Shown piece by piece: positions 1 to 12,410 of a stretch of 25,049 nt of DNA. The translations under genes were made by a program, and so were the position numbers. This stretch comes from a virus. The notes under the pieces were generated by a model, which was not told the origin of the DNA, did not search any database, and saw only the letters and a program-made list of their open reading frames with translations. Position 1 is the first letter of the stretch. Every line of letters begins with the position of its first letter. The stretch spans positions 1 to 25,049 of IMG/VR virus record IMGVR_UViG_3300025325_000517, one strand, 5' to 3'.

Positions 1-82
1 CATCGTGTGGCACGCGCATTATCTCATGGGCCGATTTCTGTGGCAGCGATCAAGCACAAATTATCGCAACATCGGAGATGAT

Positions 83-889
83 ATGCGCCGAATCGCGCTG
101 ACGGCCGTTCTCTTCGCGCTGCTGTTCACTTCTCAGCCCGATCCCGTGCCCGCCGCGCCGCTCGCGTCGCACATCGTCTACGTGCCGCTGGCGGCACATC
201 AATATCTGCCGCGTCATGGCGCAGGCATGGGCTTCCCGGAATGCGGCGACTGGGATGTGCTTCGGCCAGAATGGTACTATAATTGGGGCTACGAATCTTC
301 GTGCCCGGACGCGGCGCGCTACGTGTACGTGGACATGATCGAAAAAGAGACGGACATGGACGATCCCATCGGCACCGAATGGCTGCTGGGATTCAACGAG
401 CCTGACTTGGCCGACCAGTCCAATCTATCGCCGCGCCATGCCGCCGAACTATGGCGCATCATCGAGAATCGGCATCCCGATCGCCGCCTGGTGTCGCCGG
501 CGCCGTCGCAGCGTCACCCGGATTGGCTGTGGCAGATGGTCGCGGAATATCGCGCCCTCTACGGCGAGTCGCCGCGCTTCGAGGCACTCGCGTATCATTT
601 CTACGACGTGAGCGTTCCGGGCGCGCTGGCGGCGTATCTGGGCACGCGGCGCGATGAGGCTGCCGCGCAGGGCTACGATGTACAGATCTGGCTCACTGAA
701 TTCGGCACATGCGGCGATGCTGTGTGGATGGCCGAATCTGTCGCCTGGCTCCGGGCGCAGCCGTGGGTCGCGCGCTGGGCATGGTACGGCGCGCGCGTTC
801 AGCCCAACGGCGACTGCACGTCGCTTCTGGACGATGACGGCCTGACGGCGTATGGCGAGCGTTTCGTGGCGCTGCGGGAGATGCGATGA
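83..889 (+). CDS. Secreted Asl1-like glycoside hydrolase (GH128-type catalytic core)
   Basis: A 268-residue protein beginning with a basic-hydrophobic signal peptide (MRR, then a hydrophobic run to about residue 17, then a Pro/Ala-rich stretch). The ATG at 83 follows a GGAG at 74-77; an in-frame ATG at 5 would add 26 residues ahead of the signal peptide and is less likely. The fold signature is that of glycosyl hydrolase catalytic core proteins. FNEPD at 104-108 carries the probable acid/base Glu106, and LTEFG at 204-208 carries the probable nucleophile Glu206. Aromatic-rich strands such as YHFYD (171-175) and RWAWYG (231-236) fit a TIM barrel. It probably hydrolyses a beta-glucan-like polymer outside the cytoplasm; the substrate is not readable. 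Its stop overlaps the next start in an ATGA, so it is the first visible gene of the operon. Confidence 0.75.
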   Translation: MRRIALTAVLFALLFTSQPDPVPAAPLASHIVYVPLAAHQYLPRHGAGMGFPECGDWDVLRPEWYYNWGYESSCPDAARYVYVDMIEKETDMDDPIGTEWLLGFNEPDLADQSNLSPRHAAELWRIIENRHPDRRLVSPAPSQRHPDWLWQMVAEYRALYGESPRFEALAYHFYDVSVPGALAAYLGTRRDEAAAQGYDVQIWLTEFGTCGDAVWMAESVAWLRAQPWVARWAWYGARVQPNGDCTSLLDDDGLTAYGERFVALREMR

Positions 890-1758
890 AGGCGCTGGTA
901 TTCGGATTGGGCAACATCGGCGTGCGTCATGTGCGCAATCTGAAGGCGCTCCGGCCTGATTGCCTGATCGTCGGCGCAGACCCGCGCCTGGCGGGTCCGC
1001 TGCAAAGCGCCATCTCGAACGGCTATCATGACAGTCTGCCTGTGACGTATCTCTACGAGGACTGGCGCAAGGCGCTCGAGCGCCATCACGATGTAGATGC
1101 CGCGATTATCGCCAGTCCTACGCAATTTCATATAGAGCAGATGGAGGCATTCGCTGCGCGCTCCATTCCGTTTTATGTCGAAAAACCGCTGATCGCCCTG
1201 GAACAAATGAATCCGATGATGATCGATTTATTGGATGACTGCGCAGATTTGCATTGCGCCGTCGATTTCCAATATCGCTTCCATCCGATCCTCCGTGAGG
1301 CGGCCCGCAAGATCATCATGAATGAATACGCGCGCTTCTATGCCTGTGATGACTTGCTTGCCAAGTACGGCCCGGATTGCCTGTCATATATCGCCGCACA
1401 TCCCATCGACACAGCGCTATGGCTGTTCGGTCCAGCCAACTCTATCCGCTTGAAGACGGACGGCCTGACGGTATATGGAACGATTGAGCACGCGCATGGC
1501 GAGAGCTTCCACGACTATCGCATCGACGCGAAGACGCGCATTTCAACCGTGACCACCCAGAAGAACGGCGGGCGCGACTCGGAGGGTTGGTCGCTCTATG
1601 CCAATGACGAGATGTACCGCGATGCGCTCGCGGCGTGGCTGGCGTGGGCGACGGGCGGCGCGGCACGCGACGACCGAACAGCAACGCTGGACGATGGACT
1701 GTGCGTGATGGAAGTCATGGCGCAGACGAAAATCAAGGAAGGAGAGAGACAACCATGA
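886..1758 (+). CDS. Gfo/Idh/MocA-family NAD(P)-dependent oxidoreductase
   Basis: A 290-residue Rossmann-fold dehydrogenase. The dinucleotide-binding glycines are in VFGLGNIGVRH (G7, G9, G12), and the family EKP motif (E99-K100-P101) supplies the catalytic-site lysine. HPID at 172-175 matches the usual His/Asp region of the second domain. Known members oxidise or reduce sugars and nucleotide sugars. It is short for the family (usually 330-380), with a reduced C-terminal sheet. It starts in the ATGA of the glycosidase stop and ends in an ATGA with the next gene, so translation is probably coupled. Neighbouring sugar genes suggest a nucleotide-sugar or glycan substrate, by inference only. Confidence 0.85.
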   Translation: MKALVFGLGNIGVRHVRNLKALRPDCLIVGADPRLAGPLQSAISNGYHDSLPVTYLYEDWRKALERHHDVDAAIIASPTQFHIEQMEAFAARSIPFYVEKPLIALEQMNPMMIDLLDDCADLHCAVDFQYRFHPILREAARKIIMNEYARFYACDDLLAKYGPDCLSYIAAHPIDTALWLFGPANSIRLKTDGLTVYGTIEHAHGESFHDYRIDAKTRISTVTTQKNGGRDSEGWSLYANDEMYRDALAAWLAWATGGAARDDRTATLDDGLCVMEVMAQTKIKEGERQP

Positions 1759-1982
1759 ACACCCTGCACGTACTCGATCGGACGGGCGATACCAAGATTA
1801 CCTGGGATCGCACGATCCCTGAGGAGGTGGGGGCCGCGCGGGCGACCTTCAATAGGCTGAAGCAGGATAATCGCTATCTGGCCTACAAAGTAAATCCAGG
1901 CGGCAACAAGGGCGAGGTCATCACCGAATTCGATCCGGATGCCGAGAAAATCATCCTCGCCCCGCCCATGGTGGGTGGGTAG
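1755..1982 (+). CDS. Small conserved-looking phage protein (75 aa)
   Basis: The start is the ATG at 1755, overlapping the previous stop by ATGA and preceded by GGAGAGAG at 1741-1748. The protein opens with a VLDRTGDTKITWD pattern and ends DPDAEKIILAPPMVGG. I recognise this pattern from small proteins that recur in phage and phage-like contigs, but no function is known to me. There is no membrane segment, signal peptide or metal motif. It probably forms a small alpha/beta domain. It has no obvious link to the sugar enzymes on either side, which fits a mosaic phage operon. Confidence 0.7.
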   Translation: MNTLHVLDRTGDTKITWDRTIPEEVGAARATFNRLKQDNRYLAYKVNPGGNKGEVITEFDPDAEKIILAPPMVGG

Positions 1983-1983
1983 C

Positions 1984-2514
1984 GTGGCAGCCCTAACTGA
2001 GTCAAATTCCATGACCGGCACCTGGGAGTCATGGGCGGTGGATACATCTAATACGGCTACATGCAGTTCAGCGACATGGACGCATTTGACTAGCGGAACG
2101 ACTCATATCGTCAGCGTCGTCTATACGGCGCGGCGCGAACTGTCCGCAGAGGAACGCGAGCAGATGCGCCTGGAAAACAAACAACTGCGACAATGGGCAG
2201 ACAGGCGCGCAGAGGAGCGCAGGCAGGCCGATGCCCGCGCCGACGATTTGCTCCTGTCACTTCTGACACCCGCCGAACGCGAGACGATGGAGAAGATGGC
2301 GGCGCTCGTCGTCAGGGGCCAGACCGGGCGCACTTTCCGACTGCGGCGGGGACGAATAGCCAATGTGGACGAGATGGACGCGGGCGGCAATGTGATCGCC
2401 AGGTTCTGCATTCACCCTCGAGAATCCGTACCCTATGGCGATAATCTGCTGGCTCAGAAATTGATGCTCGAGACGAATGAGGCTGAATTTCTGAGGATAG
2501 CCAATCGCAGCTGA
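1984..2514 (+). CDS. Phage protein of unknown function (176 aa), coiled-coil middle
   Basis: The GTG at 1984 is two bases after the previous stop; an ATG at 2011 is an alternative start. The first 45 residues are rich in Ser, Thr and Trp (W-x-x-W spacing). A charged helix follows (about residues 50-90, Glu/Arg/Gln-rich, probably coiled coil), then a compact C-terminal domain with GRTFRLRRGRIANV, a CIHP motif and an ending like LLAQKLMLETNEAEFLRIAN. This layout is familiar from uncharacterised phage-contig proteins. Cys and His in CIHP could bind metal, but there is no second clear pair. Function unknown. Confidence 0.65.
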   Translation: MAALTESNSMTGTWESWAVDTSNTATCSSATWTHLTSGTTHIVSVVYTARRELSAEEREQMRLENKQLRQWADRRAEERRQADARADDLLLSLLTPAERETMEKMAALVVRGQTGRTFRLRRGRIANVDEMDAGGNVIARFCIHPRESVPYGDNLLAQKLMLETNEAEFLRIANRS

Positions 2515-2528
2515 CAAAGGGGGTCATC

Positions 2529-2816
2529 ATGCTTGAGGTGTCCGGAACGCTTGCGAAGGACTGCCCGCGCGGGCAGGATGTGGCCGCGCTTCATCAGAAC
2601 GGCACGAGGCGCATGCCGACACTCGGCGGCTGGAAGATAGAGCCGAAGTACGAGCCGACGTATACCGTCGGCCTGCCATTCGGCGGCCTGCATCCTGTCG
2701 CGCCCGTCGCTCTCAAGGCGGGCGACGTCCTCGTCGCCGACGCCGAGACGGGTGAGGCGGCGCGTGTGGAGCGAGACGGCGAAGTCGTGTGGATCAAGGA
2801 CGGCGGCGATGAATGA
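2529..2816 (+). CDS. Hypothetical protein (95 aa)
   Basis: The start follows an AAGGGGG Shine-Dalgarno at 2516-2522. The protein is beta-rich, with a C-terminal stretch (about residues 55-95) of the form ALKAGDVLVADAETGEAARVERDGEVVW, suggesting a small barrel or lipoyl-like beta domain. No catalytic or metal-binding motif is visible. The last eight bases overlap the start of the PseG-like gene, so it is probably co-translated. I do not recognise the family. Confidence 0.6.
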   Translation: MLEVSGTLAKDCPRGQDVAALHQNGTRRMPTLGGWKIEPKYEPTYTVGLPFGGLHPVAPVALKAGDVLVADAETGEAARVERDGEVVWIKDGGDE

Positions 2817-3774
2817 CGTTCTGTTCTGGGTCATCGGCGACAGGCAGCACGGCATGGGTCACGTCGCCCGCAGCATTGTCCTGGCCGATGAATTGGGACG
2901 GCGCGGCCATCGCTGCCGATTCGCCACGGCCCACGAAACGCCCGGATTCCACCGCCTGCGCCGCTCACCGCACGTAACGACGGATTACCATCCAGATGAT
3001 TTGTCGTGGATGAAACGTGGCGGCGATTGGCTCGTCGTCGACGTCGAGGGCGGATCCGATCGTGCGCTGCTCGAGGCGGCCCGCCCGCGATTCCGTAAGG
3101 TGATTGTCGTCGCCGGCAGCGGCTGGACGCTGCGCGATGAGCAGGCGGTGCGCGAGAATGCCGACCTCGTCGTCTGCCAAACGATAGCCGTGCCCGACGA
3201 GGATGACGGTTATCTGTACGGCGCGGAATTGATCGTGATCGATCCGCGCTTTGCGGCCTGCGTCCCGAACCCGGATGGCCCGATTGTCGTCAGCTTCGGC
3301 GGCGGCGATCCGCACGATTTGACGTGGCTGGCGGCGGGCGCGCTGCTGGACGCAGACGTGCGGGGCGGGCGAGAGATCATTCAGGTTGTCGGCCCCGCCG
3401 CCTATGGCACGAGTCTGGCAGAGAGTGGTGCGCGCATCGTCGCGTCACCCGGTTCGCTGGCGTCCATTTTGGACGGCGCGTCATTACTCGTTGGCCAATT
3501 CGGCATGACGGCCTATGAGGCGGCGGCGGCGGGCGTGCCGTCAGTGTTATATGGTCTGAGTGGTGACCACGTTTCGACGGCGCTGCGATTGCAACAGGAA
3601 AACGCGGCGTTCGTGGCGGGTCTATGGGACGAATTCAACAAGGACGATCTGATCGACCTGGCCGCCTCCATCCTGGGCCGCGATGAAATGTGGCGCGCCA
3701 TGAGCGCGGCGGGCAAGCGGCTGATCGATGGCCAGGGCGTCGTGCGCGTGGCGGACAGAATCGAAGGAGAATGA
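2809..3774 (+). CDS. PseG/SpsG-like UDP-sugar hydrolase or GT28-type glycosyltransferase
   Basis: A 321-residue GT-B-like protein. The N-terminal motif GDRQHGMGHVARS (residues 10-22) matches the G-x-GH-x-x-R motif of PseG/SpsG, with His18 in the place of the PseG catalytic histidine. The C-terminal nucleotide-binding half has IVVSFGGGDP (159-168) and VGQFGMTAYEAAAAGVPSV (228-246), typical of MurG/PseG-type UDP-sugar binding. PseG removes UDP from a UDP-diacetamido-sugar on the way to pseudaminic acid; SpsG relatives act in spore-coat polysaccharide synthesis. The ATG at 2809 is chosen because homology begins there; it overlaps the previous gene by 8 bases. A PseG-like gene together with an SpsF-like gene (10457) is typical of nonulosonic-acid or SPS loci. 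Exact substrate unknown. Confidence 0.75.
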   Translation: MNDVLFWVIGDRQHGMGHVARSIVLADELGRRGHRCRFATAHETPGFHRLRRSPHVTTDYHPDDLSWMKRGGDWLVVDVEGGSDRALLEAARPRFRKVIVVAGSGWTLRDEQAVRENADLVVCQTIAVPDEDDGYLYGAELIVIDPRFAACVPNPDGPIVVSFGGGDPHDLTWLAAGALLDADVRGGREIIQVVGPAAYGTSLAESGARIVASPGSLASILDGASLLVGQFGMTAYEAAAAGVPSVLYGLSGDHVSTALRLQQENAAFVAGLWDEFNKDDLIDLAASILGRDEMWRAMSAAGKRLIDGQGVVRVADRIEGE

Positions 3775-3775
3775 G

Positions 3776-3988
3776 ATGAGACATAGATGTTTGGGGGTTC
3801 ATCTTGAGGATCATTGGAATTGGAAATGTCCCTTCTGCGAATATGAATTCAATGTATGGGACGAGGGGGGGAGATTCGAGCGCATCAGCATGGGCGCAGG
3901 CGAATCACAAATCACGCATTTCGGAGGCGTGGGCGGGCTGGAAATGATCAATATGCCGACGGCGTTTCAGTCGAATGACGCGGCATGA
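3776..3988 (+). CDS. Small hypothetical protein with a CPFC knuckle (70 aa)
   Basis: The ATG at 3776 has AAGGAGA at 3764-3770. The protein contains one Cys pair in KCPFCEYEF (about residues 19-27) and an earlier His-Arg-Cys near the N-terminus, so a small zinc-binding unit is possible. The gene is noticeably AT-richer than its neighbours, suggesting separate acquisition. Its 3' end overlaps the duplicated methyltransferase start segment (3984-4015). Function unknown. Confidence 0.5.
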   Translation: MRHRCLGVHLEDHWNWKCPFCEYEFNVWDEGGRFERISMGAGESQITHFGGVGGLEMINMPTAFQSNDAA

Positions 3989-4015
3989 TGGCCCGCTTCT
4001 GGGAGAACGCGATGG
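3984..4015 (+). repeat. Diverged copy of the methyltransferase 5' end
   Basis: This 32-base stretch matches 4117-4148 (inside the methyltransferase gene) with 5 mismatches. In one frame it reads HDGPLLGERDG against HNGPLLGERDG in the intact gene. Three of the mismatches are synonymous third-position changes (Glu, Arg, Asp codons), so the copy seems to descend from a translated methyltransferase start rather than arising by chance. The match ends abruptly after the GERDG codons, and the frame stops at TAA a few codons later. Confidence 0.7.
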
Positions 4016-4099
4016 ATGGATGACTTACTCAGGACGATAATAGCATTCGCGATATTGGGTATCGGCATTGTCATTGCATTCAAAGTGGGCAGGATTTGA
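4016..4099 (+). CDS. Candidate 27-residue single-pass membrane microprotein
   Basis: The ATG at 4016 gives MDDLLRTIIAFAILGIGI and then VIAFKVGRI before TGA. About 17 hydrophobic residues form one membrane helix with acidic N- and basic C-terminal ends. The stop overlaps the methyltransferase start in TGATG, which would couple translation. GGGAGA lies 10 bases upstream (4001-4006). It sits between the scar copy and the intact methyltransferase start, so it may have arrived with the event that made the duplication. It could also be chance coding. Confidence 0.35.
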   Translation: MDDLLRTIIAFAILGIGIVIAFKVGRI

Positions 4100-4980
4100 T
4101 GGCTCAGGCCGCATTGCATAACGGCCCGCTTCTGGGAGAGCGTGACGGCCTGCGCGTGATTTCGTGTCACGCTTGCGGCTTCGCGCATCTGGAGACACTG
4201 CCCGACGCGGCGGCGCTGGCGGACTATTACGTCAAAGATTTCTGGCGCGAAAAGCCGGGAGCGCTGGAACGCATAGAGGAGCAGCGCGAATGGTGGCACG
4301 TGATTTATGATGATTGGATGGACTGTATCGAGCAATATGTGACGGGACGGGATTTGTTGGATGTGGGCGCGGGATATGGATTTTTCATAGATGCCGTCCA
4401 TGAACGCGGCTGGAATCCCTGGGGCATAGAACCCAATCGTGTCGCGTGTGAATATGCGGACAAAAAACTCGGATGGCCGTTGTTCAATGGTTCGTGGGAA
4501 GATTGGGATTATGGTTGGGGATTTAATTTCATATCGGCGCTGTGGCTCATTGAACATCTGCCCGATCCGTTCCGCTTCTTGCGTTGGTGTCATGCGCGAC
4601 TGAAGGAAGGCGGCGTATTGCTGCTCGTCACGCCGAACGACTTCAGCCGCAATCAGGAACAGGCGAACAAGACGGTCACCAGGCCATATTGGTGGATCGA
4701 TAAGACTCATCTCAATTACCTCACGCCCGTCACGCTCGCCAATTTGCTCGGGCGCGCTGGATTCAGAGTCGCAGACCATCTGACGATGTTCCCGATGGAG
4801 CTATTCCTGATGCGCGGCCATGACTATACGGTGGACGACGAGATCGGGCGTCGCTGCCATAAGCGCGTCGAGCGATTCGACCTGCGCATGAGGCGCGAGG
4901 AGCGGATCGCGTTATACCGGCGTTGGGCGCGCGCGGGCATGGGCAGGGAGATTGTGTTCGTGGCGATAAAAGATGCTTAA
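4099..4980 (+). CDS. Class I SAM-dependent methyltransferase (Methyltransf_23-like)
   Basis: A 293-residue protein. SAM motif I is LLDVGAGYG (86-94), followed by acidic Glu111 at the end of strand 2. LWLIEHLPDP (148-157) is the motif-IV-like segment, and GGVLLLVTPND (171-181) the later strand. A short N-terminal domain has one Cys pair, CHACGF (23-28). Relatives that act on sugars usually carry two CxxC pairs there, and the upstream pair is missing, so the N-terminus looks truncated. Position among nucleotide-sugar genes suggests O-, N- or C-methylation of a sugar, by inference. The ATG at 4099 overlaps the microprotein stop. The middle of the gene is AT-richer than its ends. Confidence 0.8.
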   Translation: MAQAALHNGPLLGERDGLRVISCHACGFAHLETLPDAAALADYYVKDFWREKPGALERIEEQREWWHVIYDDWMDCIEQYVTGRDLLDVGAGYGFFIDAVHERGWNPWGIEPNRVACEYADKKLGWPLFNGSWEDWDYGWGFNFISALWLIEHLPDPFRFLRWCHARLKEGGVLLLVTPNDFSRNQEQANKTVTRPYWWIDKTHLNYLTPVTLANLLGRAGFRVADHLTMFPMELFLMRGHDYTVDDEIGRRCHKRVERFDLRMRREERIALYRRWARAGMGREIVFVAIKDA

Positions 4981-5179
4981 AGTCCCTCTGCGGCGGCGCA
5001 AGATCAAGAAAATGATGGTGCCTTATGTGACATGGCTTGCTTTTAATATTGAGCAGCATCCCATATCGGATGTATTCGCCTGGTTCGGGATCAATTCATG
5101 GAGATGGGGCATTGAGATTGTCATTCTCAATGTCGGCCTGTCCTGTTTCTTGTCGTCCGATTATGACAGGGACAAATGA
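4973..5179 (+). CDS. Small hypothetical protein, possible membrane anchor (68 aa)
   Basis: It overlaps the methyltransferase end by 8 bases. A very basic N-terminus (RRRKIKK) is followed by an aromatic segment and a moderately hydrophobic stretch at about residues 46-60 (IEIVILNVGLSCFL). An internal ATG at 5012 is a possible alternative start. The gene is AT-rich. Its stop overlaps the next start (ATGA), supporting a real operon member. No family recognised. Confidence 0.45.
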   Translation: MLKVPLRRRKIKKMMVPYVTWLAFNIEQHPISDVFAWFGINSWRWGIEIVILNVGLSCFLSSDYDRDK

Positions 5180-5400
5180 TGATTAAAAAGTCTTCTTTTC
5201 ATTCTGGCGACATTGTCCACGCCTACATCAATCGGGGCAGCGATCGGGATGGACCCTACAATCAATTCGAGGAAGGCCTGGTCATTGAAGTTCGTGAGGG
5301 TAAAATTCTTGTGGAATTGCATGACTCTACACGGCAATGGGTTGAGGATCACCCCGCTCGAATAAGATTGATAAAAAGGACACGGAGCGCAGACGCATGA
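5176..5400 (+). CDS. Small hypothetical protein (74 aa)
   Basis: It begins in an ATGATGA overlap with the previous gene and ends in an ATGA overlap with the dehydrogenase, which supports expression. The sequence is beta-rich (SGDIVHAYINRG, then EEGLVIEVREGKILVELHDS), reminiscent of small SH3- or KOW-like barrels, but no diagnostic residues can be named. It is AT-richer than the flanking enzymes, like the other small ORFs inserted in this operon. Function unknown. Confidence 0.5.
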   Translation: MMIKKSSFHSGDIVHAYINRGSDRDGPYNQFEEGLVIEVREGKILVELHDSTRQWVEDHPARIRLIKRTRSADA

Positions 5401-6074
5401 CCCAGATCGCTCTTTTGACGGGCGGCTCGCGCGGGATCGGCGCGGCCACGGCGGAATTGCTGCGCGAGCGAGGGTGGGAAGTAAATGCCCCATCGCGTCA
5501 GCGGCTTGACTTCTCGGATACGGGCCTGCTAAATGTCTATCTAATGGACTGGCTTAGCGGCTTGGAAGTTCCACGATTCGATGCAGTGATATTCTGTCAC
5601 GGCGAATGGTATTCGCGTTCGCCCTGGCAAAACCGCTATGTCGATCCGGCCATAGTCTGGTATCGGCAGTTCACCATTCGCATTTTCTCACCGATATTCC
5701 TGCTTCAATTCCTGCTCGGCGGCGATCCGAAATGGCATCCTGGATGCGTTGTCATGGTTTCATCGACGCGCGGCCTGATAGGCGGCGTGAATACCGGACC
5801 CTATGCGGCAGCATGCGCCGCACAAATCGTGCTGATGCAGGGGTACGCTCGAGAATATGAGGGAAGGACACGCTTTAATGTGATATGTCCGGGATTGACT
5901 GACACCGACATGGGCCGCGAGGTCATTGCCACGGGTGACGCGAAGCCGGACGCCGTGCCGCAGCCGGTGGGGGCCGTCGCCGCTGAGATCGTGCGGCTGA
6001 TCGAGTCGGACGATAATGGGCGGGTTATGCGCGTCGTGGACGGCGTGGCGACGGAGGCGAAATGGAGCTGGTGA
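5397..6074 (+). CDS. Short-chain dehydrogenase-like protein with altered YxxxK motif
   Basis: A 225-residue SDR fold. The cofactor-binding TGGSRGIG is at 8-15, the usual NNAG region is replaced by a CHG (67-69), and the catalytic-serine region is MVSSTRG (120-126). The active-site tyrosine is present (Tyr136), but the lysine four residues later is Cys140 (YAAAC, codon TGC), so the classic Tyr-xxx-Lys pair is broken. It may be a non-reductive SDR (epimerase- or dehydratase-like, or a binding protein) or inactive. Coupling by ATGA to the preceding gene and a 13-base overlap with the following radical SAM gene place it in the sugar operon. Confidence 0.8.
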   Translation: MTQIALLTGGSRGIGAATAELLRERGWEVNAPSRQRLDFSDTGLLNVYLMDWLSGLEVPRFDAVIFCHGEWYSRSPWQNRYVDPAIVWYRQFTIRIFSPIFLLQFLLGGDPKWHPGCVVMVSSTRGLIGGVNTGPYAAACAAQIVLMQGYAREYEGRTRFNVICPGLTDTDMGREVIATGDAKPDAVPQPVGAVAAEIVRLIESDDNGRVMRVVDGVATEAKWSW

Positions 6075-7237
6075 ATCCGCTCACGGCCTTTGTTTTTCCC
6101 GGCACATGGGATGCGCCGCTCGACATACACGGTATAGGCATGAAGGGCGTCAGGGAAAAGCAAGGCGTCAGCTTCAGCCGGCACGGATTCGTGCAGGCCC
6201 GCGACCACGGCGGCGACGCGGATGCCATCGGCGCGGCGGTGCGGCGCGCGCTGAGGCCGCTCTCACTCCCGATGCTGCAAGTGGCGCGGGAAGATTACGA
6301 CGCGCGCAAGCCGGGCCTGTTTCCGCGTTACTTCATCGTGGAACCGAATGCTTCGTGCAATCGCAGATGCATCTTTTGTCCTATCCTGGTAACGAATCGC
6401 AAGGGAAACATGAAGTGGCAGCATTTTGTCAAACTCATGAAAGAGTGCAGAAAACATTGGGTATATGGAATAAGCTTATACCAACTTTCAGAACCGTTTC
6501 TGTGGCGCGGCTCTGCTCCTGGATATAATGAACGATATGACATCAGCGACATGGTGAATGTCGCTAGGCATATGGGTGGTTTTCGCGCCGTCAATCTGTC
6601 TACTAACGGCGATGTGCCAAACCTGGATTGCATCCTCGGATCGCAATTAGACGATCTTATTATCAGCATCGATGGCACGACCGCCGAAGTCTATGACGCC
6701 AATCGGCCTAGCACGAAGCCGAATGACACGGGCGCATTCGAGCGTACGATAAACCGCGTGCGGGATTTCCTGAAGCGCAAGGTGGCGCGGGGCGACATTA
6801 GGCCGTTCATCAGACTTCAGTGTATCAACAAAGAGAACACGGCGGCGCAGGTCGTGGATTTCATCCGCTACTGGATCGACATACCGGGCGTGGACGATGT
6901 GCTGATCAAGCACCTGGACAGCATGAGACCGTGGCTTGGCTCGTCCGTGGTGAGCGATGAAGAAGACGCAATCAAGGCGCGCATCGTGGCCGATATGCCG
7001 TGCCAACACATTTACAGCGTCGGAAGCATGGTCGCGGATGGCCGGTTCAACGCGTGCGCGCATGACGCCTACACCGAACTGACGACGGCAGGCGCGAACA
7101 TCGACGAGATGACATTCGTGGAATGGTGGAATGGCGACTACATGAACGCACTGCGGGCGGAGCACGAAGGCAAAGCGGCGGCGAATCGCCGACTGCCCTG
7201 CCGCGAGTGCAGGGAGATGGATACATGGCTGGGATGA
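6062..7237 (+). CDS. Radical SAM protein with SPASM-like C-terminal cysteines
   Basis: A 391-residue protein. The 4Fe-4S motif is CNRRCIFC (Cys99, Cys103, Cys106), followed by the barrel (STNGD and LIISIDGTT segments). The C-terminal third holds further cysteines (PCQHIYSVG, FNACAHD, and CRECRE near the end) that could bind an auxiliary cluster, as in SPASM/twitch proteins. An N-terminal extension of about 80 residues precedes the cluster motif. Such enzymes do radical modification of peptides, sugars or cofactors; the target here is unknown. It overlaps the SDR by 13 bases and the B12 radical SAM by 13. Its last codons (EMDTWLG) recur in the chimeric remnant at 8541-8642. Confidence 0.85.
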   Translation: MELVNPLTAFVFPGTWDAPLDIHGIGMKGVREKQGVSFSRHGFVQARDHGGDADAIGAAVRRALRPLSLPMLQVAREDYDARKPGLFPRYFIVEPNASCNRRCIFCPILVTNRKGNMKWQHFVKLMKECRKHWVYGISLYQLSEPFLWRGSAPGYNERYDISDMVNVARHMGGFRAVNLSTNGDVPNLDCILGSQLDDLIISIDGTTAEVYDANRPSTKPNDTGAFERTINRVRDFLKRKVARGDIRPFIRLQCINKENTAAQVVDFIRYWIDIPGVDDVLIKHLDSMRPWLGSSVVSDEEDAIKARIVADMPCQHIYSVGSMVADGRFNACAHDAYTELTTAGANIDEMTFVEWWNGDYMNALRAEHEGKAAANRRLPCRECREMDTWLG

Positions 7238-8544
7238 ACAATCCGCACGTACTATTGATATGGCCGTATGGCGTGGAAGGCGCTGAGGCTATTCCGATGG
7301 CCTTTGCATTCCTCGTCCCCCCGCTTCAGAGAGAGCATGTCACTATCACGATATTGGATTGCTCACTGTCGCGCATGCATCCCAATGGCCCCGAATTCTC
7401 CGATTTTCTTCGAGGATTGAGGCCCGACTTTATTGGCATTTCATCCTGGTCTCAGAATTGGCGCTGGATTGAATTCACGATTGCGACAATCCGAAAAGTT
7501 CTAGCTGGTGTGCCGGTTGTACTGGGCGGTCCTCATATCAGCGCCACTGAGGATTATGGCCCAGCAGATTATGCATTGGCGGGGGAATGTGAAAAAACTT
7601 TTCCACAATTAATGCGACTATTAAGCACGGGCGCGGGGAAAACAGAGATAGAGCAGATACCCGGCCTGCGATTCCTGGGACAAACACTCGTCTTACCCAA
7701 GCAGCCCATAGCCGACTTGGACGCTCTGGGTTTGCCAAACTATGACGCCATGTTATTGCGCCAGTATCAGCAGGGGGGCTATCGCTATCGGGACGACACG
7801 CGCCTTCAGGCGCCGGTTTTTGCCACACGTGGCTGTCCATATGAGTGTACTTTCTGTGAGGCTCCGATCATCAGCGGGCGGCGGATTCGCAAGCATTCTA
7901 TTGTCTATCTGCGTGAACTCCTGCTGCACCTCCGGAGGGAATTCAATGTAAGCCACATCAATATTGTGGATGACAATTTCACATTCTATAAAGACTATGC
8001 CAAACAATTCTGTGAGATGGTATTGGAGAATCGTGAGGTGCTGGGCAATATGACATTTGCCACTCCCAATGGCATTCGTGTTGAGCGCAGTGACGGTGAA
8101 ATGTTCAAGATGATGAAAGCGGCAGGCTGGAGCCGTGTAATCTTTGCGCCTGAAAGCGGGAGCCAGCGTGTCGTTGATCTCATGGCAAAACACCTTGATT
8201 TGAGCGTCGTCGGCGATCGATTATCTTTGGCACACGAGGCCGGGCTGGAAGTCGAGGCGTTTTTCATCGTCAACTATCCCGGCGAAACCGACGAAGATGT
8301 TCAGCTTACTGAGAAATTCATTTCCGAGATGGCTTTTGATGCGGTATCCTTGCATATCTTCAAGCCGCTGCCGCATACACCCATATGGCGCGAATTGGTC
8401 GAGGATAGAAAACTCAGTCCCGAATATGTTATCGGGCGCTATGATGAAATCGACTGGCTAGCGAATGGTCGAACACGCGAGGAGGTGGCCGAGATCTTTG
8501 CGAGATTGAGTCGCGTGGCCCAGAAAGTGGAGCGCATTGCATGA
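7225..8544 (+). CDS. B12-binding-domain radical SAM protein
   Basis: A 439-residue protein with the layout of cobalamin-dependent radical SAM enzymes. The N-terminal B12-binding-like Rossmann domain (about 5-140) has VVLGGPHISA (98-107) and an AGE segment (119-121); the radical SAM core has ATRGCPYECTFCEAP with Cys204, Cys208 and Cys211. Members do methyl transfer to unactivated carbons, ring contractions and similar chemistry. The ATG at 7225 has AGGGAG at 7211-7216 at good spacing; an ATGA start at 7234 is the alternative. Its start region was copied to 8596-8631. It is probably partnered with the preceding radical SAM gene. Substrate unknown, perhaps a nucleotide-linked sugar. Confidence 0.85.
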   Translation: MAGMNNPHVLLIWPYGVEGAEAIPMAFAFLVPPLQREHVTITILDCSLSRMHPNGPEFSDFLRGLRPDFIGISSWSQNWRWIEFTIATIRKVLAGVPVVLGGPHISATEDYGPADYALAGECEKTFPQLMRLLSTGAGKTEIEQIPGLRFLGQTLVLPKQPIADLDALGLPNYDAMLLRQYQQGGYRYRDDTRLQAPVFATRGCPYECTFCEAPIISGRRIRKHSIVYLRELLLHLRREFNVSHINIVDDNFTFYKDYAKQFCEMVLENREVLGNMTFATPNGIRVERSDGEMFKMMKAAGWSRVIFAPESGSQRVVDLMAKHLDLSVVGDRLSLAHEAGLEVEAFFIVNYPGETDEDVQLTEKFISEMAFDAVSLHIFKPLPHTPIWRELVEDRKLSPEYVIGRYDEIDWLANGRTREEVAEIFARLSRVAQKVERIA

Positions 8545-8642
8545 AGGCCCTCATCCTCCTCGGCGGCAATGCCGAGGCCGTCCTCCTCATTGAGGGGGAG
8601 ATGGATACATGGCTGGGACAAATAATCCGCATATATTTATGA
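8541..8642 (+). pseudogene. Chimeric remnant: ATP-grasp start joined to radical SAM gene end
   Basis: A 33-codon frame begins in the ATGA of the radical SAM stop. Its first 18 residues (MKALILLGGNAEAVLLIE) match the first 18 of the ATP-grasp protein starting at 8878 at 13 of 18 positions; DNA 8541-8594 versus 8878-8931 has 10 mismatches in 54. It then continues in frame into EMDTWLG, the C-terminus of the first radical SAM protein (6062-7237), and reads through because that stop codon TGA is CAA here. It looks like a recombination scar rather than a functional peptide. Confidence 0.75.
8596..8631 (+). repeat. Copied translation-start region of the B12 radical SAM gene
   Basis: These 36 bases match 7212-7247 with 3 mismatches; the first 23 are identical. 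The segment includes the Shine-Dalgarno GGGAG, the ATG (8609) and the first codons (MAGTNNPH here, MAGMNNPH in the source). It now serves as the initiation region of the small ORF 8609-8881. Confidence 0.8.
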
Positions 8643-8881
8643 CCAAGCTTCTCTATCTCGAAGATCTGAAACGAATGATTTGCGATGATCCGAACTGCAA
8701 ACACACGCCAGAGGATCATATACTCTATCTACATTCGCGCTGTCATACGCATGCGGCGACTTGGGCGGTTTTTATGAGCGAACATTTGCGCATTGAATGC
8801 GCGGAATGCCATGAAATCGTGTCTGAGATTGCGGTAGCGGTGAAGCCAAATAAATGGCCGCATCGAGCCTATCCATCATGA
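8609..8881 (+). CDS. Small Cys/His-rich hypothetical protein (90 aa) on a borrowed start
   Basis: The ATG at 8609 follows a GGGGGAG Shine-Dalgarno copied from the B12 radical SAM gene, and the first eight codons are also from that copy. The ORF's own sequence probably begins near Met11 (8639), which has no ribosome site of its own. Cysteines and histidines (CDDPNCKHTPEDH, SRCHTHA, CAECHE) suggest a zinc-binding fold. The stop overlaps the ATP-grasp start (ATGA). AT-richer than its neighbours. Function unknown. Confidence 0.5.
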   Translation: MAGTNNPHIFMTKLLYLEDLKRMICDDPNCKHTPEDHILYLHSRCHTHAATWAVFMSEHLRIECAECHEIVSEIAVAVKPNKWPHRAYPS

Positions 8882-10146
8882 AAACGATTATCCTTCTCGG
8901 CGGCAATGTCGAGGCCGTCCCCATCATCGAGCGCGCCAGCGCGCTCGGCCACCGCGCCGTGGTTGTGGACAACGACGCGCGCTGTCCGGGCCGCGCGCTG
9001 ACGGATGACTTCGTGCATGCCTCCTGCTATCATGCCGACCGCGCTATCGCGTCGCTGTCGCGGCACGCCTATACCAATCGTCTATTCTATGATGGCGTTC
9101 TGTGCGCGGCGGTGGACGCGCCGCACGTCGCTGCGGAGATCGCGGCGCGTTTCGGTCTGCCCGGGCTGGGCATTGAAGCGGCGTGGCTGAGCGCGGACAA
9201 GCTGGCGCAGAAAAAGGCGCTGGCAGGCCATGTCCCGCTGCCCATGTTCAAGTCGTGGCCGTTCCCGGTTTCGCTGCACAAAATGACTGGTGGGGGCGGG
9301 GCGGGGGATGTGTTCACTCATATCGTAAAGCCTGTTGATTCTCGCGGCGGGCGTGGCGTTGTGCGTGTCACGAAAGACATCGATCCCGCGTTCGCCTACG
9401 AGATCGCGCGCGGCCAGTCGCCCACGGGCCGCGTGATGGTCGAGCAGTGGCTGGATGGAACGCAACTCTCCACCGAATCCATTGTGCAAGATGGCCGTGC
9501 GTTGTTTACGGCGGTCGGGCTGCGGAACTATGCGCGGCTGGAGGAGTTCGCGCCGTTCGTTATCGAGGATGGATTCGATGAACCATGGGGGCCATTCGAT
9601 GAACCATGGGGGCCATATGCTGGTTCTGAATCGCAAGCAGATATTGGCCGTATAATCGAACACGCTTGTCGTGCGCTCAATTGGTATCAGTCCGGGGTTG
9701 GCACAGTCAAAGGTGATCTTGTCATCCACGATGAGAGATTCCACGTCATCGAGCTTGCGGCTCGGCTGTCCGGCGGCTTCTTCTCGACGCATGGCATCCC
9801 GCTTGCTTATGGCGTCGATTTCGCCGGCGTAGCGATTCGGGCGGCGCTGGGGGAACACCTGAATGCCCTCACGCAAACATTGCCCGCCGCGTCTTTCGTG
9901 AGTCAACGCTATGTTTTTCCAGAGCCGCAGGACATCGGCAAGACCGTCGTCGCCATCGACAACCATCGGCCCGGGCATGCTATCTTCCACTCATGGAACA
10001 TCCACGAGGACACGGTTGTCCAGCACGTCACTTCTCACCCGGCGCGATGGGGCCAGTGCATCGCCGCCGGCGCGACGGATGACGAAGCGCGGCGAGGAGC
10101 CGAGCAGGGCGTGCGCGAGATGAAGGCGGGAGTGGTGCTGAAATGA
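8878..10146 (+). CDS. ATP-grasp carboxylate-amine/thiol ligase family protein
   Basis: A 422-residue protein. The N-terminal pre-ATP-grasp Rossmann domain starts with IILLGGNVEAVPII. Lys108 lies at the usual domain boundary (SADKLAQK). The ATP loop is VKPVDSRGGRGV (150-161), adenine-contacting Glu189 is in VEQWLDG, and the metal-binding Glu292 with Arg296 is in IELAARLSGG. The family ligates a carboxylate to an amine, thiol or bicarbonate via an acyl phosphate. Translation starts at ATG 8878 in the ATGA overlap with the previous stop. A perfect 21-bp tandem duplication lies in frame at residues 233-246 (FDEPWGP twice). It might attach an amino acid or acyl group to a sugar amine; that is inference. 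Confidence 0.85.
   Translation: MKTIILLGGNVEAVPIIERASALGHRAVVVDNDARCPGRALTDDFVHASCYHADRAIASLSRHAYTNRLFYDGVLCAAVDAPHVAAEIAARFGLPGLGIEAAWLSADKLAQKKALAGHVPLPMFKSWPFPVSLHKMTGGGGAGDVFTHIVKPVDSRGGRGVVRVTKDIDPAFAYEIARGQSPTGRVMVEQWLDGTQLSTESIVQDGRALFTAVGLRNYARLEEFAPFVIEDGFDEPWGPFDEPWGPYAGSESQADIGRIIEHACRALNWYQSGVGTVKGDLVIHDERFHVIELAARLSGGFFSTHGIPLAYGVDFAGVAIRAALGEHLNALTQTLPAASFVSQRYVFPEPQDIGKTVVAIDNHRPGHAIFHSWNIHEDTVVQHVTSHPARWGQCIAAGATDDEARRGAEQGVREMKAGVVLK
9573..9614 (+). repeat. Perfect 21-bp in-frame tandem duplication
   Basis: Two identical 21-base units run head to tail (9573-9593 and 9594-9614), encoding FDEPWGP twice inside the ATP-grasp gene. There are no mismatches between units, so the duplication is recent or maintained. 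Confidence 0.95.
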
Positions 10147-10460
10147 GACGCGCCGCCCGCGTAGATCGCAACCAGGCCGAAATCGTCGCCGCCCTGCGCG
10201 CGGGGGGCGCGAGCGTCCAGCCGCTGCACGCCGTCGGCAGGGGAGTGCCAGATTTGCTCGTGGGATGGCGCGGGAAAAATTTCCTGCTGGAGCTGAAGGA
10301 CGGCACAAAACCGCTGAGCAAGCGAGATTTGACCGGGGCCGAATTGGCTTGGATTAGAGCATGGGACGGGCATGTCTCGGTAGTCTCGTCAGCCGACGAA
10401 GCGCTCGATGTTGTGTTCGGGATAGGGGCTGGCGGTGACATTGTAAGGCTGGAGATATGA
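10143..10460 (+). CDS. PD-(D/E)XK nuclease-like phage protein (VRR-NUC/resolvase type)
   Basis: A 105-residue protein. The restriction-like core is readable: N-terminal helix Glu13, then PDLLVG (Pro36, Asp37), then LLELKDG (Glu50, Lys52), the D-x(n)-E-x-K metal site. LTGAELAWIRAW and VVSSADEAL continue the pattern of small phage VRR-NUC-like nucleases. It probably cuts DNA, perhaps branched DNA, during replication or recombination. ATGA overlaps on both sides lock it into the sugar operon although it has no evident role in sugar chemistry. Confidence 0.75.
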   Translation: MRRAARVDRNQAEIVAALRAGGASVQPLHAVGRGVPDLLVGWRGKNFLLELKDGTKPLSKRDLTGAELAWIRAWDGHVSVVSSADEALDVVFGIGAGGDIVRLEI

Positions 10461-11359
10461 GCGACTACGCCGTCATCATCAAGGCCCGGATGTCCTCCGA
10501 GCGTCTGCCCAGCAAAGCGCTCGCCGTCTACGCCCCGGACGGCACGCCGAACCTCATCCAAATCGTGCGCCGCTGGCAGGCATCCGACCGCGATCCGGTC
10601 ATCATCGTCGCCACGACAGATGGGCTTGAGGATGGCGTAATCGCCGATTATTGCGCCGGCTACGGCGTCGCCTGCTTTCGCGGCTCGCGCGACGACGTGA
10701 CGGGCCGCATGGATGGCGCGATCAAGGCGTTCGCGCCAGACGCCAGATGGATCGCGCGCGGCAGCGCCGACAATCCGCTGGTGGATGTGGGCCTGGCCGA
10801 CTGGCGCTTCGACATCCTGGCCGAGACGGGCGCCGACGGGCTGTGGTACGGCGGTGAGCACGAGCGCATCACTTACGCGGGCACGACGGACGTATGGTCC
10901 CGCCGTGCCTGGGACGCCATCGCCGAGGGCAGCAGCGGCAGCCAGGACGAGCATCCAGGCGGCTGGTTCTGGGACAACCTGTCGCGCCTGAATGTCGTCC
11001 AGATTCCGATGCCGCGCCGCGAGTATCTTGCGCCCGTGCGGACCGAACTGGACACGCCCGCCGATCTGGAGATGTTCCGCCAATTGTGGCGCCAAATGTC
11101 CAATGAAGAAGGAAACGAAATTAGTTGCATTAACACGCTGGATGCGCTAAAATACCTGATAGGCCATCCACAGCTTGCGGCCACGAACGCCGAAGTCGGC
11201 GCGAAGACGATGACGCGCCCGATCTGGCGCAAGGGCCTGCCGTTCCTGTGCCGGTCGTGCCAGAACCGGCTCGGCAGCATCGTGTCGGGCGATTTCGAGG
11301 TGCGCTGCGCGCGGTGCGGCGCGCCGGGCAAATTCTACCGGGGAGGGAAGCGTGGGTAA
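10457..11359 (+). CDS. SpsF-like cytidylyltransferase fused to a zinc ribbon
   Basis: A 300-residue protein. Residues 1-215 match NTP transferases of the SpsF/NeuA type: IIKARMSSERLPSKAL (7-22) corresponds to the IIQARMGSTRLPGKVL loop, RGSADNPLVD (101-110) to the metal/nucleotide site, and RTELDTPADLEMF (195-207) to the C-terminal signature. The expected reaction is CMP- or NDP-activation of a sugar. Residues 225-300 form an unrelated tail ending in a zinc ribbon (Cys265/Cys268 and Cys284/Cys287). An internal ATG near 11097 could once have begun a separate gene, so a fusion by loss of a stop is plausible. ATGA coupling upstream; the next gene overlaps by 8 bases. Confidence 0.8.
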   Translation: MSDYAVIIKARMSSERLPSKALAVYAPDGTPNLIQIVRRWQASDRDPVIIVATTDGLEDGVIADYCAGYGVACFRGSRDDVTGRMDGAIKAFAPDARWIARGSADNPLVDVGLADWRFDILAETGADGLWYGGEHERITYAGTTDVWSRRAWDAIAEGSSGSQDEHPGGWFWDNLSRLNVVQIPMPRREYLAPVRTELDTPADLEMFRQLWRQMSNEEGNEISCINTLDALKYLIGHPQLAATNAEVGAKTMTRPIWRKGLPFLCRSCQNRLGSIVSGDFEVRCARCGAPGKFYRGGKRG

Positions 11360-12083
11360 ATTGCATGAGCTTTTGGCCGTCGAGGCCGATCTGAAAGCGA
11401 AGGCGCAGAGCGCCATCGCCCGCATCAAGCACCTGTTCGGAGAGGGGCAGGGGAGGCTTGTCGGCCAGTCGCGGACATACAGCCCGCTCCTGGATGGCGG
11501 CGAGCCGCTACCCAACGAGAGCACCGAGCTGGCGACGACCGTTGCCGATGAGATTCGGATGCTGCGCGATCCCGTCATGGATTGGATTGACGCGGCAATC
11601 CAGAAGGAAGTCACGAATCAGCGCACGAATGCCGAGATTGTCCTAAACGGGAAGGCCATCGGCCTGCCCGCGCCCGCACTCCTGAATCTGGAGGCGAAAT
11701 TGGCTGAGCTTCGGCAGATCGTGGTCGTCGTGCCGGTCAATAACCCGTCTGAATCGTGGACATGGGATGCGCAGGTCGGCCATTATGTTTCCAGGGAGCG
11801 CGTGACCTATCGCACGCAGAAGGTGACGAAGCCGGTCGTGCTTTATGAGGCGACCAAAGAGCATCCCGCGCAGGTGCAGGCCGTCTCCGAGGACATCCGT
11901 GTCGGCGCGTGGCATACGGTTATCCATTCCGGCATGATTTCCCCGACGCGCAAATCGGAATGGCTCAACCGCATCGACGCGCTGATCCGGGCCGTGAAGC
12001 AGGCGCGGCAACGCGCCAATGACATTCAGGTCGAGGACGTCCACGTCGGCGCGTCGATGTTCGACCACATTTTTCGGGAGTAG
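11352..12083 (+). CDS. DUF7873-like phage/actinobacterial family protein (243 aa)
   Basis: A GTG start at 11352 follows GGGAGGGAAG (11341-11350) and overlaps the previous stop. The opening GKLHELLAVEADLKAKA, the central SRTYSPLLDGGEPLPNES, the middle SWTWDAQVGHYVS with YRTQKV, and the final DVHVGASMFDHIF fit a family I recall as DUF7873, found in actinobacteria and phages. It is largely helical with a central beta part. No enzymatic residues are known to me. It is the last gene before the non-coding RNA region and intrinsic terminator, so it likely ends the operon. Confidence 0.75.
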   Translation: MGKLHELLAVEADLKAKAQSAIARIKHLFGEGQGRLVGQSRTYSPLLDGGEPLPNESTELATTVADEIRMLRDPVMDWIDAAIQKEVTNQRTNAEIVLNGKAIGLPAPALLNLEAKLAELRQIVVVVPVNNPSESWTWDAQVGHYVSRERVTYRTQKVTKPVVLYEATKEHPAQVQAVSEDIRVGAWHTVIHSGMISPTRKSEWLNRIDALIRAVKQARQRANDIQVEDVHVGASMFDHIFRE

Positions 12084-12139
12084 CCTTGTGATCAGCGTGC
12101 GCGTCAGCCTGACGGCTCAGCGTATTGCTCCACAAGTTT

Positions 12140-12300
12140 AGCGGGGGATTCGTCAGCCAGGCACGTGAGCGCGGCGAAACCAACAGCCCAGGCGCCGGTG
12201 CGATTCCGGTTCCCGCCTCTCCGTGGCGGGATAGTCCAGTAGCAGGACGGGGCCATAAGCATAGCCGCGCCGGCGTGAGGCGACGCACAATCCTATTGCT
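12140..12300 (+). ncRNA. Candidate structured RNA with a circularly permuted tRNA-like domain
   Basis: No gene covers this stretch. In order it contains: GCCC (12186-12189); variable-loop-like AGGC; a T-arm GCCGG-TGCGATT-CCGGT (12194-12210; one change from the GGTTCGATTCC consensus); TCCCGCC (12211-12217); a 7-nt loop; GGCGGGA (12225-12231), exactly complementary to the preceding 7-mer like an acceptor stem; TA; a D-arm GTCC-AGTAGCA-GGAC (12234-12248); one G; then GGGC (12250-12253), pairing with the first GCCC like an anticodon stem. Every piece has tRNA length, but the 3' half precedes the 5' half. Outside it, GCGCGGC (12169-12175) pairs with GCCGCGC (12264-12270), leaving a 10x10 internal loop, and GGGATT (12145-12150) pairs with AATCCT (12289-12294). 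Function unknown. Confidence 0.55.
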
Positions 12301-12338
12301 CACCGTGAGGCGAGCGATACCTTTCAGAGGTACATATT

Positions 12339-12368
12339 GGAAAGGGGCACAGGGTAGTGCCCCTTTCC
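12339..12368 (+). terminator. Intrinsic terminator of the cargo operon and structured RNA
   Basis: A perfect 12-bp stem, GGAAAGGGGCAC (12339-12350) with GTGCCCCTTTCC (12357-12368), closes a 6-nt loop. It is followed by a pyrimidine-rich tract containing TTTT. A smaller 5-bp hairpin (TACCT/AGGTA, 12318-12332) precedes it. Confidence 0.8.
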
Positions 12369-12380
12369 CCTTCCTTTTCC

Positions 12381-12410
12381 TTGACACGGCACGCACATCT
12401 GTTGTAGAAT
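12381..12410 (+). promoter_or_regulatory. Sigma70-type promoter
   Basis: TTGACA at 12381-12386, an 18-base spacer, then TAGAAT at 12405-12410. It lies directly after the terminator and points towards 12498. The transcript would begin near 12417 and carry the GGCGC-AAAA-GCGC motif (12426-12438) and the hairpin at 12456-12477. Confidence 0.75.

Follow-up and report, generated by a model that had tools for sequence, protein, structure and literature searches.

A circularly permuted tRNA mimic, built like bacterial Y RNAs, accompanies DUF7873 rather than Ro60 in phages and bacteria

To our knowledge, bacterial Y RNAs have been described only as partners of Ro60. Those of the YrlA type are known as circularly permuted tRNA mimics (PMC11472068; PMC8394870). 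Rsr/Ro60 binds the basal stem of YrlA, and PNPase binds its tRNA-like head, which DusA and TruB modify (PMC8394870); the YrlA structure superposes on tRNA with a circular permutation (PMC11472068; for the biology of YrlA see also PMC7790460). Here, we describe an RNA with the same arrangement in a 25,049-nucleotide stretch of viral DNA (positions 1 to 25,049 of the IMG/VR record IMGVR_UViG_3300025325_000517; this whole stretch is "the window" below). An earlier note, made from the letters of this DNA alone, had recognized a chain of tRNA elements in permuted order but took the arrangement to be new for a phage and missed the link to the YrlA-type Y RNAs. The RNA is a permuted, Y-like tRNA mimic that is widely conserved, and its companion is DUF7873 (Pfam PF25283) rather than Ro60.

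The permuted tRNA-like head and its basal stem lie at 12169-12270, where the earlier note had placed them, and the chain could be read letter for letter. (This and all other features of the window's RNA are on the plus strand.) The basal helix P1 (12169-12175 with 12264-12270, 7 of 7 pairs) opens into a 10x10 internal loop, with GAAACCAACA on its 5' side (12176-12185, invariant in two near relatives) and 12254-12263 on its 3' side. Then come the 3' strand of an anticodon-like stem (12186-12189, which forms 4 base pairs with the 5' strand at 12250-12253), a variable loop of 4 nucleotides (12190-12193), the T arm (12194-12210, with the loop TGCGATT and G at position 55), and the 3' strand of the acceptor stem (12211-12217). 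The 7-nucleotide acceptor loop or spacer TCTCCGT (12218-12224) starts with the N-C-Y (NCCA-like) signature of the family, and the 5' strand of the acceptor stem (12225-12231) has G1 as its first base and forms 7 of 7 pairs. Finally, after TA, the D arm (12234-12248) has the loop AGTAGCA, in which A replaces G at position 18, matching G55, and a single G (G12249) separates it from the 5' strand of the anticodon-like stem. The unguided minimum-energy structure from ViennaRNA consists of exactly these helices (z −2.95), and the wider stretch 12084-12368 has a folding z of −5.06. The minimum-energy fold also contains an outer helix, P0 (12145-12150 with 12289-12294). In the two closest relatives (L002 and L038), the tRNA-like core hardly varies and 6 of the 7 pairs of P1 are kept; P0 is invariant between them and the window, so it is not open to a covariation test there. 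The intrinsic terminator of the earlier note is present and would end the RNA (a hairpin at 12339-12368, with a 12-base-pair stem and a T-rich tail).

A strict descriptor (a perfect T stem with the T-loop signature, a perfect 7-base-pair acceptor across a short spacer, two linker bases, and a perfect D stem) had one match in the window, at 12194 on the plus strand. It had no match in 200 simulated windows that keep the window's dinucleotide frequencies. Standard tools were silent: ARAGORN and Rfam at gathering thresholds made no call in the window, and BLASTN of the RNA region against named phages found no match.

Across the family, the head helices and P1 show massive compensatory change. In a plain MAFFT alignment of 37 domains (A4), the T arm was 99.5% paired, with 5 of 5 pairs changed on both sides, and the acceptor was 98.8% paired, with 7 of 7 pairs changed on both sides. 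(For the T arm, acceptor, and D arm together, pairing was 98-99.5%, with both-sided changes in 15 of 16 pairs.) Overall pairing was 92.2%, versus 60.3% in shuffled alignments, and there were 240 double changes versus 72. The covariation score of 0.858 (0.227 when shuffled) was reached by 0 of 500 shuffles and collapsed with a slide of one column. The head's pairing percentage is partly selected, because the descriptor that picked the domains demands pairing in the head. The anticodon-like stem is not part of the descriptor; all four of its pairs changed on both sides, with 65.5% of cells paired. For P1, we took 104 domains that were not chosen for P1 and compared each 5' flank with its own 3' flank or with those of other loci. 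The mean best helix score was 16.1 with own flanks and 12.39 (standard deviation 0.24, 200 permutations) with the flanks of other loci, and the range of P1 positions was narrow in the 38 domains listed. Thus, covariation in 12211-12217/12225-12231 and 12169-12175/12264-12270, which the earlier note had named as the decisive helices, was found at the level of the family. Together with matches to a covariance model (R1, below), these tests strongly support the option of a tRNA mimic. The simulated windows, the controls for the locus scan (below), and the covariation rule out a chance structure: the permuted tRNA-like structure in the window is real, and the comparative evidence puts it beyond chance.

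Another option in the earlier note was a permuted tRNA that needs processing. As in algae, such a precursor would mature into a working tRNA by cleavage within the acceptor spacer and ligation on the anticodon side, and the T arm, the D arm, the acceptor, U8, G1, and the N-C-C-A encoded in many loci would all fit. This is very improbable because there is no anticodon loop; instead, dozens of loci have an internal loop and then a covarying basal helix on the anticodon side. Also, the acceptor sequences vary freely, with no fixed identity element such as G3-U70. We rejected a working tRNA because the anticodon side enters the 10x10 loop and P1 in the window and the layout is the same in its relatives. 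A transfer-messenger RNA (tmRNA) was rejected because there is no tmRNA call in the window and because of the missing G3-U70 identity pair: pair 3 is C-G in the window, and it is C-G, G-C, A-U, or U-A in 101 of 106 domains and G-U in 4. Weak, sub-threshold beta_tmRNA matches were seen in two relatives only. Inspection by eye, with no systematic search, showed no tag reading frame.

The earlier note correctly saw a gene just upstream of the RNA, which it called the last cargo gene, but it missed that this gene is DUF7873, the regular companion of the RNA. The gene (11352-12083, plus strand, 243 amino acids) has a GTG start that overlaps the end of the gene before it, and its product belongs to DUF7873 (Pfam E = 7e-75; 252.3 bits, with a cut-off of 27). 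We took relatives of DUF7873 from viral contigs, named phages (73 relatives), and bacterial genomes (57 relatives), and a second viral scan with the DUF7873 profile gave the same loci. The phage carriers include phages of Arthrobacter, Gordonia, Rhizobium, Rhodococcus, Klebsiella, Vibrio, and Pseudanabaena, and the bacterial carriers are cyanobacteria, Cytophagales, Actinomadura, planctomycetes, myxococci, and others. The relatives listed from named phages are annotated as "hypothetical protein" or are unannotated.

With the strict descriptor, we scanned the 1.2 kb 3' of DUF7873, and 88 of 114 phage and bacterial loci (a count that includes near-duplicate loci) contain a permuted tRNA-like domain there. 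Control scans had far fewer loci with a match: 5 of 114 on the reverse strand and 5 of 110 on the upstream side. In most of the named phages that we read, DUF7873 is followed by unannotated DNA, from a few hundred to about 1100 bases long. There were two domain matches in 39 loci, with the second usually about 150 bases past the first. The window has one full domain; where many relatives hold a first permuted tRNA-like domain, it has a short stem (a reduced first domain at 12085-12136, closed in the fold by the helix 12085-12090/12131-12136). Inside this reduced domain lies the family motif TATTGCTCC (12123-12131), which, in lineages as different as cyanobacteria and actinophages, mostly precedes the T arm by 64-71 nucleotides. 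A search with a covariance model, as the earlier note had suggested, was also productive. R1, which we built from the DUF7873-linked RNAs, located the RNA on the 3' side of DUF7873 in about 91 of the 105 loci searched, many of them outside the training set (75.6 bits at L016, 73 at L031, 74.3 at L074, and 73.1 at L096, all non-training loci).

The linkage also holds within groups of bacteria. DUF7873 is present in 50 of 65 genomes of the Actinomadura group (the genus of G003, locus L081), and in 50 of these 50 carriers the best R1 match (54-81 bits) is on the same contig, a few hundred bases from DUF7873. DUF7873 is rarer in the Nostoc group (the family of G001, locus L074), where 11 of 145 genomes carry it and the RNA adjoins the gene in 9 of the 11. 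(In one of the nine, the gene's match is confined to the second half of the profile.) In the two carriers that do not have the RNA (L175 in G025 and L176 in G074), DUF7873 is frameshifted or truncated. A further genome, G137, has a two-domain RNA without DUF7873 (L172, 1259-1537, minus strand); because the 5' part of this RNA is missing, it looks like a remnant, probably at a rearrangement. Since a separate protein family nearly always precedes the permuted tRNA mimic and decays together with it, the mimic seems to be a reusable module. Judged from linkage only, DUF7873 is the putative protein partner of the RNA.

An AlphaFold2 model of DUF7873, made with 40 homologues, has a predicted local distance difference test score (pLDDT) of 89 and consists of helices and a long-stranded beta sheet; the sequence motif YEATKEHPAQ is near-invariant. 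The model had no match in PDB or BFVD at E ≤ 0.001 (Foldseek), and the sequence had no significant match in PDB and no match in PHROGs or NCBIfam. A literature search for DUF7873 found no paper. For the pair of DUF7873 and a permuted RNA, we found no description in the literature searched, which was mostly without subscription papers, and an earlier description is possible.

How similar is the RNA to YrlA? The window RNA has the circularly permuted tRNA-like head, and it has a basal stem formed from its two ends, in which P1 covaries and is near-fixed in position. The Rfam YrlA model (RF02553) matches at 12168-12274 over its full length, with 26.6 bits (E = 0.0013), below the gathering threshold of 69, and five named phage relatives score 31-38 bits, which is also below that threshold. 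The Ro60-linked RNAs of the same survey miss it as well (31-46 bits), so the threshold is narrow. Also, R1 has a match within about 4 kb of the Ro60 gene in 6 of 6 genomes or phages that carry TROVE (the Ro60/Rsr domain) in a set of 19 members. (Some of the R1 matches near TROVE fall in tRNA clusters; the clearest, at L159, L164, L165, L166, and L168, have an independent YrlA match.) The strongest R1 match in an Actinomadura-group genome without DUF7873 (G179) adjoins a Ro60 gene (TROVE plus vWA_Ro60), and Rhizobium phage RHph_TM2_3B likewise has a strong R1 match next to its Ro60 gene, away from DUF7873. Because of the shared architecture, the sub-threshold YrlA matches, and the Ro60-linked RNAs that R1 finds, we consider the DUF7873-linked RNAs to be built like Y RNAs.

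These same observations, including the failure of the Ro60-linked RNAs to reach the Rfam threshold, could mean that the RNA is an ordinary member of the YrlA/Ro60 family whose partner is the Ro60/Rsr of the host or of a missing part of the phage, with DUF7873 as a mere frequent neighbour. We find this unlikely. First, six named phages that were searched whole (Mimi, GodonK, NiceHouse, KpLz-2_45, Pam2, and D505) have DUF7873 and the RNA and no match to TROVE. (There is also no TROVE gene in the 25-kb window record, which is possibly a fragment.) Second, the RNA lies immediately 3' of DUF7873, and Rhizobium phage RHph_TM2_3B carries the DUF7873 system and Ro60-linked RNAs at separate places, about 5 kb apart. 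Third, the basal motif of YrlA (GAAUGC ... GGAACUAC ... CUUGUC in the Rfam consensus) is absent from the window, and among 84 DUF7873-linked domains, GAAUGC occurs in only 2 and G[AG]ACUAC in 1. Finally, loss of the RNA accompanies decay of DUF7873. We do not file the DUF7873-linked RNAs as YrlA because they score below the threshold, lack the basal motif, and are not tied to Ro60.

Some further observations concern Ro60 and YrlA-like RNAs. In RHph_TM2_3B (MN988523.1, about 138170-139020; L159, 1669-2525), two to four unannotated permuted tRNA-like RNAs lie directly upstream of the TROVE (Ro60) gene. A 392-kb viral contig (IMGVR_UViG_3300029893_000001) has two YrlA-like RNAs, both on the minus strand (L161, 2980-3113, 61.7 bits; L162, 1842-1976, 54.8 bits), and no TROVE gene was detected in the record; one of the two is beside an HNH-like open reading frame and the other is beside a DUF7768 gene. 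Among 14 control genomes, Deinobacterium chartae is the sole carrier of DUF7873 and also the sole one with TROVE.

The earlier note had suspected that the elbow is rewired, and the family bears this out. Among 106 non-redundant domains, 10 have G55 in the T loop. Counting only the domains with an assignable D-loop position 18, we find A or C there in all 9 with G55 and G in 71 of the 76 with T55 (that is, non-G18 in 9/9 versus 5/76; Fisher p = 5e-9, ignoring relatedness). Compensation of this kind at the 18-55 contact speaks for a genuine L-shaped elbow, and the swap is a natural test of how a tRNA elbow can be rebuilt. The acceptor ends are also tRNA-like, in letters that were outside the scan criteria. 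Of 106 domains, 96 have C as the second base past the acceptor 3' strand, 95 have C or T as the third, and 84 have G at the start of the acceptor 5' strand. N-C-Y and G1 resemble the NCCA end and G1 of tRNA, which hints at RNase P or another enzyme of tRNA ends.

The RNA might instead act on RNase P, RNase Z, or a tRNA nuclease as a decoy or as a mimic of its substrate, with a cut at G12225 that gives a two-piece RNA, which DUF7873 may use or protect. N-C-Y in about 90% of domains and the frequent G1 would fit, and so would the acceptor spacers of 168 (L060) and 238 (L030) bases downstream of DUF7873, whose acceptors still form 7 of 7 pairs, as expected if the inserts are excised. However, these are sequence signatures only, and a decoy alone explains neither the basal stem nor the linkage to DUF7873. 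We consider a decoy improbable as the whole explanation, although this activity could be a property of a Y-type particle and so not a true rival.

Our proposal is that this region probably gives rise to a noncoding tRNA mimic of the Y-RNA-like type, which joins the product of the adjacent upstream gene, DUF7873, in a particle. In a broader reading, which we consider more likely than not, there would be a second Y-type RNA-protein system, independent of Ro60, with DUF7873 as its core; the DUF7873 protein would bind one or two permuted tRNA mimics, and the system would occur in phages of many hosts and in the chromosomes of cyanobacteria, actinobacteria, planctomycetes, myxococci, and bacteroidetes. 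The DUF7873 transcript would run on to the terminator and contain the RNA in its 3' part. DUF7873 would hold the basal stem and the internal loops, much as Ro60/Rsr holds the basal stem of YrlA, and the tRNA-like head would engage tRNA-handling proteins. Given G1 and the N-C-Y end, these could be RNase P or tRNA-modifying enzymes; analogy with YrlA would add PNPase. The particle might recruit or divert a tRNA-handling enzyme during infection or stress, perhaps to protect tRNAs or turn them over, which would suit the system's frequent place in phage tRNA clusters.

As the RNA lies between the stop codon of DUF7873 and the terminator, it could also be an element of the 3' untranslated region, or an attenuator, that regulates the DUF7873/cargo transcript, with the tRNA-like fold sensing tRNA-binding proteins. 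This is most unlikely because operon regulators usually sit 5' and because the element is tandemly duplicated in many loci. Also, the Ro60-side RNAs are 5' of the gene in the two loci checked, so RNAs of this class can lie on either side of the gene.

Several points weigh against a particle of DUF7873 and the RNA. About 13 loci, mostly metagenome-assembled genomes of Cytophagales, carry DUF7873 without a detectable RNA (the loci without a detectable tRNA-like RNA include L058, L059, L061, L063, L065-L067, and L069-L072); in these, the RNA has either been lost or is too divergent. The window RNA is itself divergent: its first domain is reduced, and it lacks the motifs ATCGA and TTAAACG, which are found together flanking P1 in 15 relatives. 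It is a divergent branch of the DUF7873-linked RNAs. With R1, neighbouring ordinary tRNAs of an array can reach about 50 bits; weak R1 matches inside tRNA clusters are therefore unreliable, and we set aside matches in tRNA arrays (e.g., L170, L171, and Pam2 50707-50964) as neighbouring ordinary tRNAs. Finally, linkage does not prove the physical partnership that we infer, and the RNA could regulate DUF7873 instead.

In the window, DUF7873 is preceded by a cargo-like run of sugar and radical-SAM genes (1-11359) on what is a Mu-like phage contig. The run includes a glycosyl hydrolase, an oxidoreductase, a methyltransferase, an SDR, two radical SAM genes, an ATP-grasp gene, and a cytidylyltransferase. 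Just past the terminator of the RNA is a sigma-70-like promoter (12381-12410; TTGACA, a spacing of 18, and TAGAAT, 11 of 12 positions), which points towards the phage structural genes (a Mu-like portal is at 16797). In the Gordonia phage GodonK, the tRNA cluster that holds the DUF7873 RNA also has a tmRNA match (L051, 1-412, 53 bits, cut at its 5' end), and this region is annotated only as a tRNA-His at its start.

The linkage is useful in both directions: it gives a lead to the function of DUF7873, which is "hypothetical" in named phages, and it gives a genetic handle on the role of the mimic module. The DUF7873-linked RNAs also explain unannotated gaps in phage tRNA clusters.

Among known systems, GOLLD and ROOL are structured RNAs of phage tRNA islands (PMC12286853), and in this respect they are similar. 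We rejected them because neither Rfam model matches; also, the DUF7873-linked RNA is shorter, and its tRNA-like domains are permuted and built in. Two-piece (permuted) tmRNAs share the order in which the acceptor 3' strand precedes the 5' strand, but the DUF7873-linked RNAs do not have G3-U70 as a rule. The circularly permuted tRNA genes of algae and archaea share the element order and an NCCA-like spacer between the acceptor strands, but the DUF7873-linked RNA has no anticodon loop, and covarying outer helices continue from its anticodon side. The closest system is YrlA (RF02553; partner of Rsr/Ro60 and PNPase, RYPER), which also has a basal stem formed from the 5' and 3' ends and a circularly permuted head of T arm, acceptor, and D arm, and which can also occur as tandem copies beside a protein gene. 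In contrast to YrlA, the DUF7873-linked RNAs lack the GAAUGC, GAACUAC basal motif and have different internal-loop motifs, and they score 26-38 bits against the threshold of 69. In most of them, an N-C-Y/NCCA-like spacer, 3 to over 200 nucleotides long, closes the acceptor, and DUF7873 stands in the place of Ro60.
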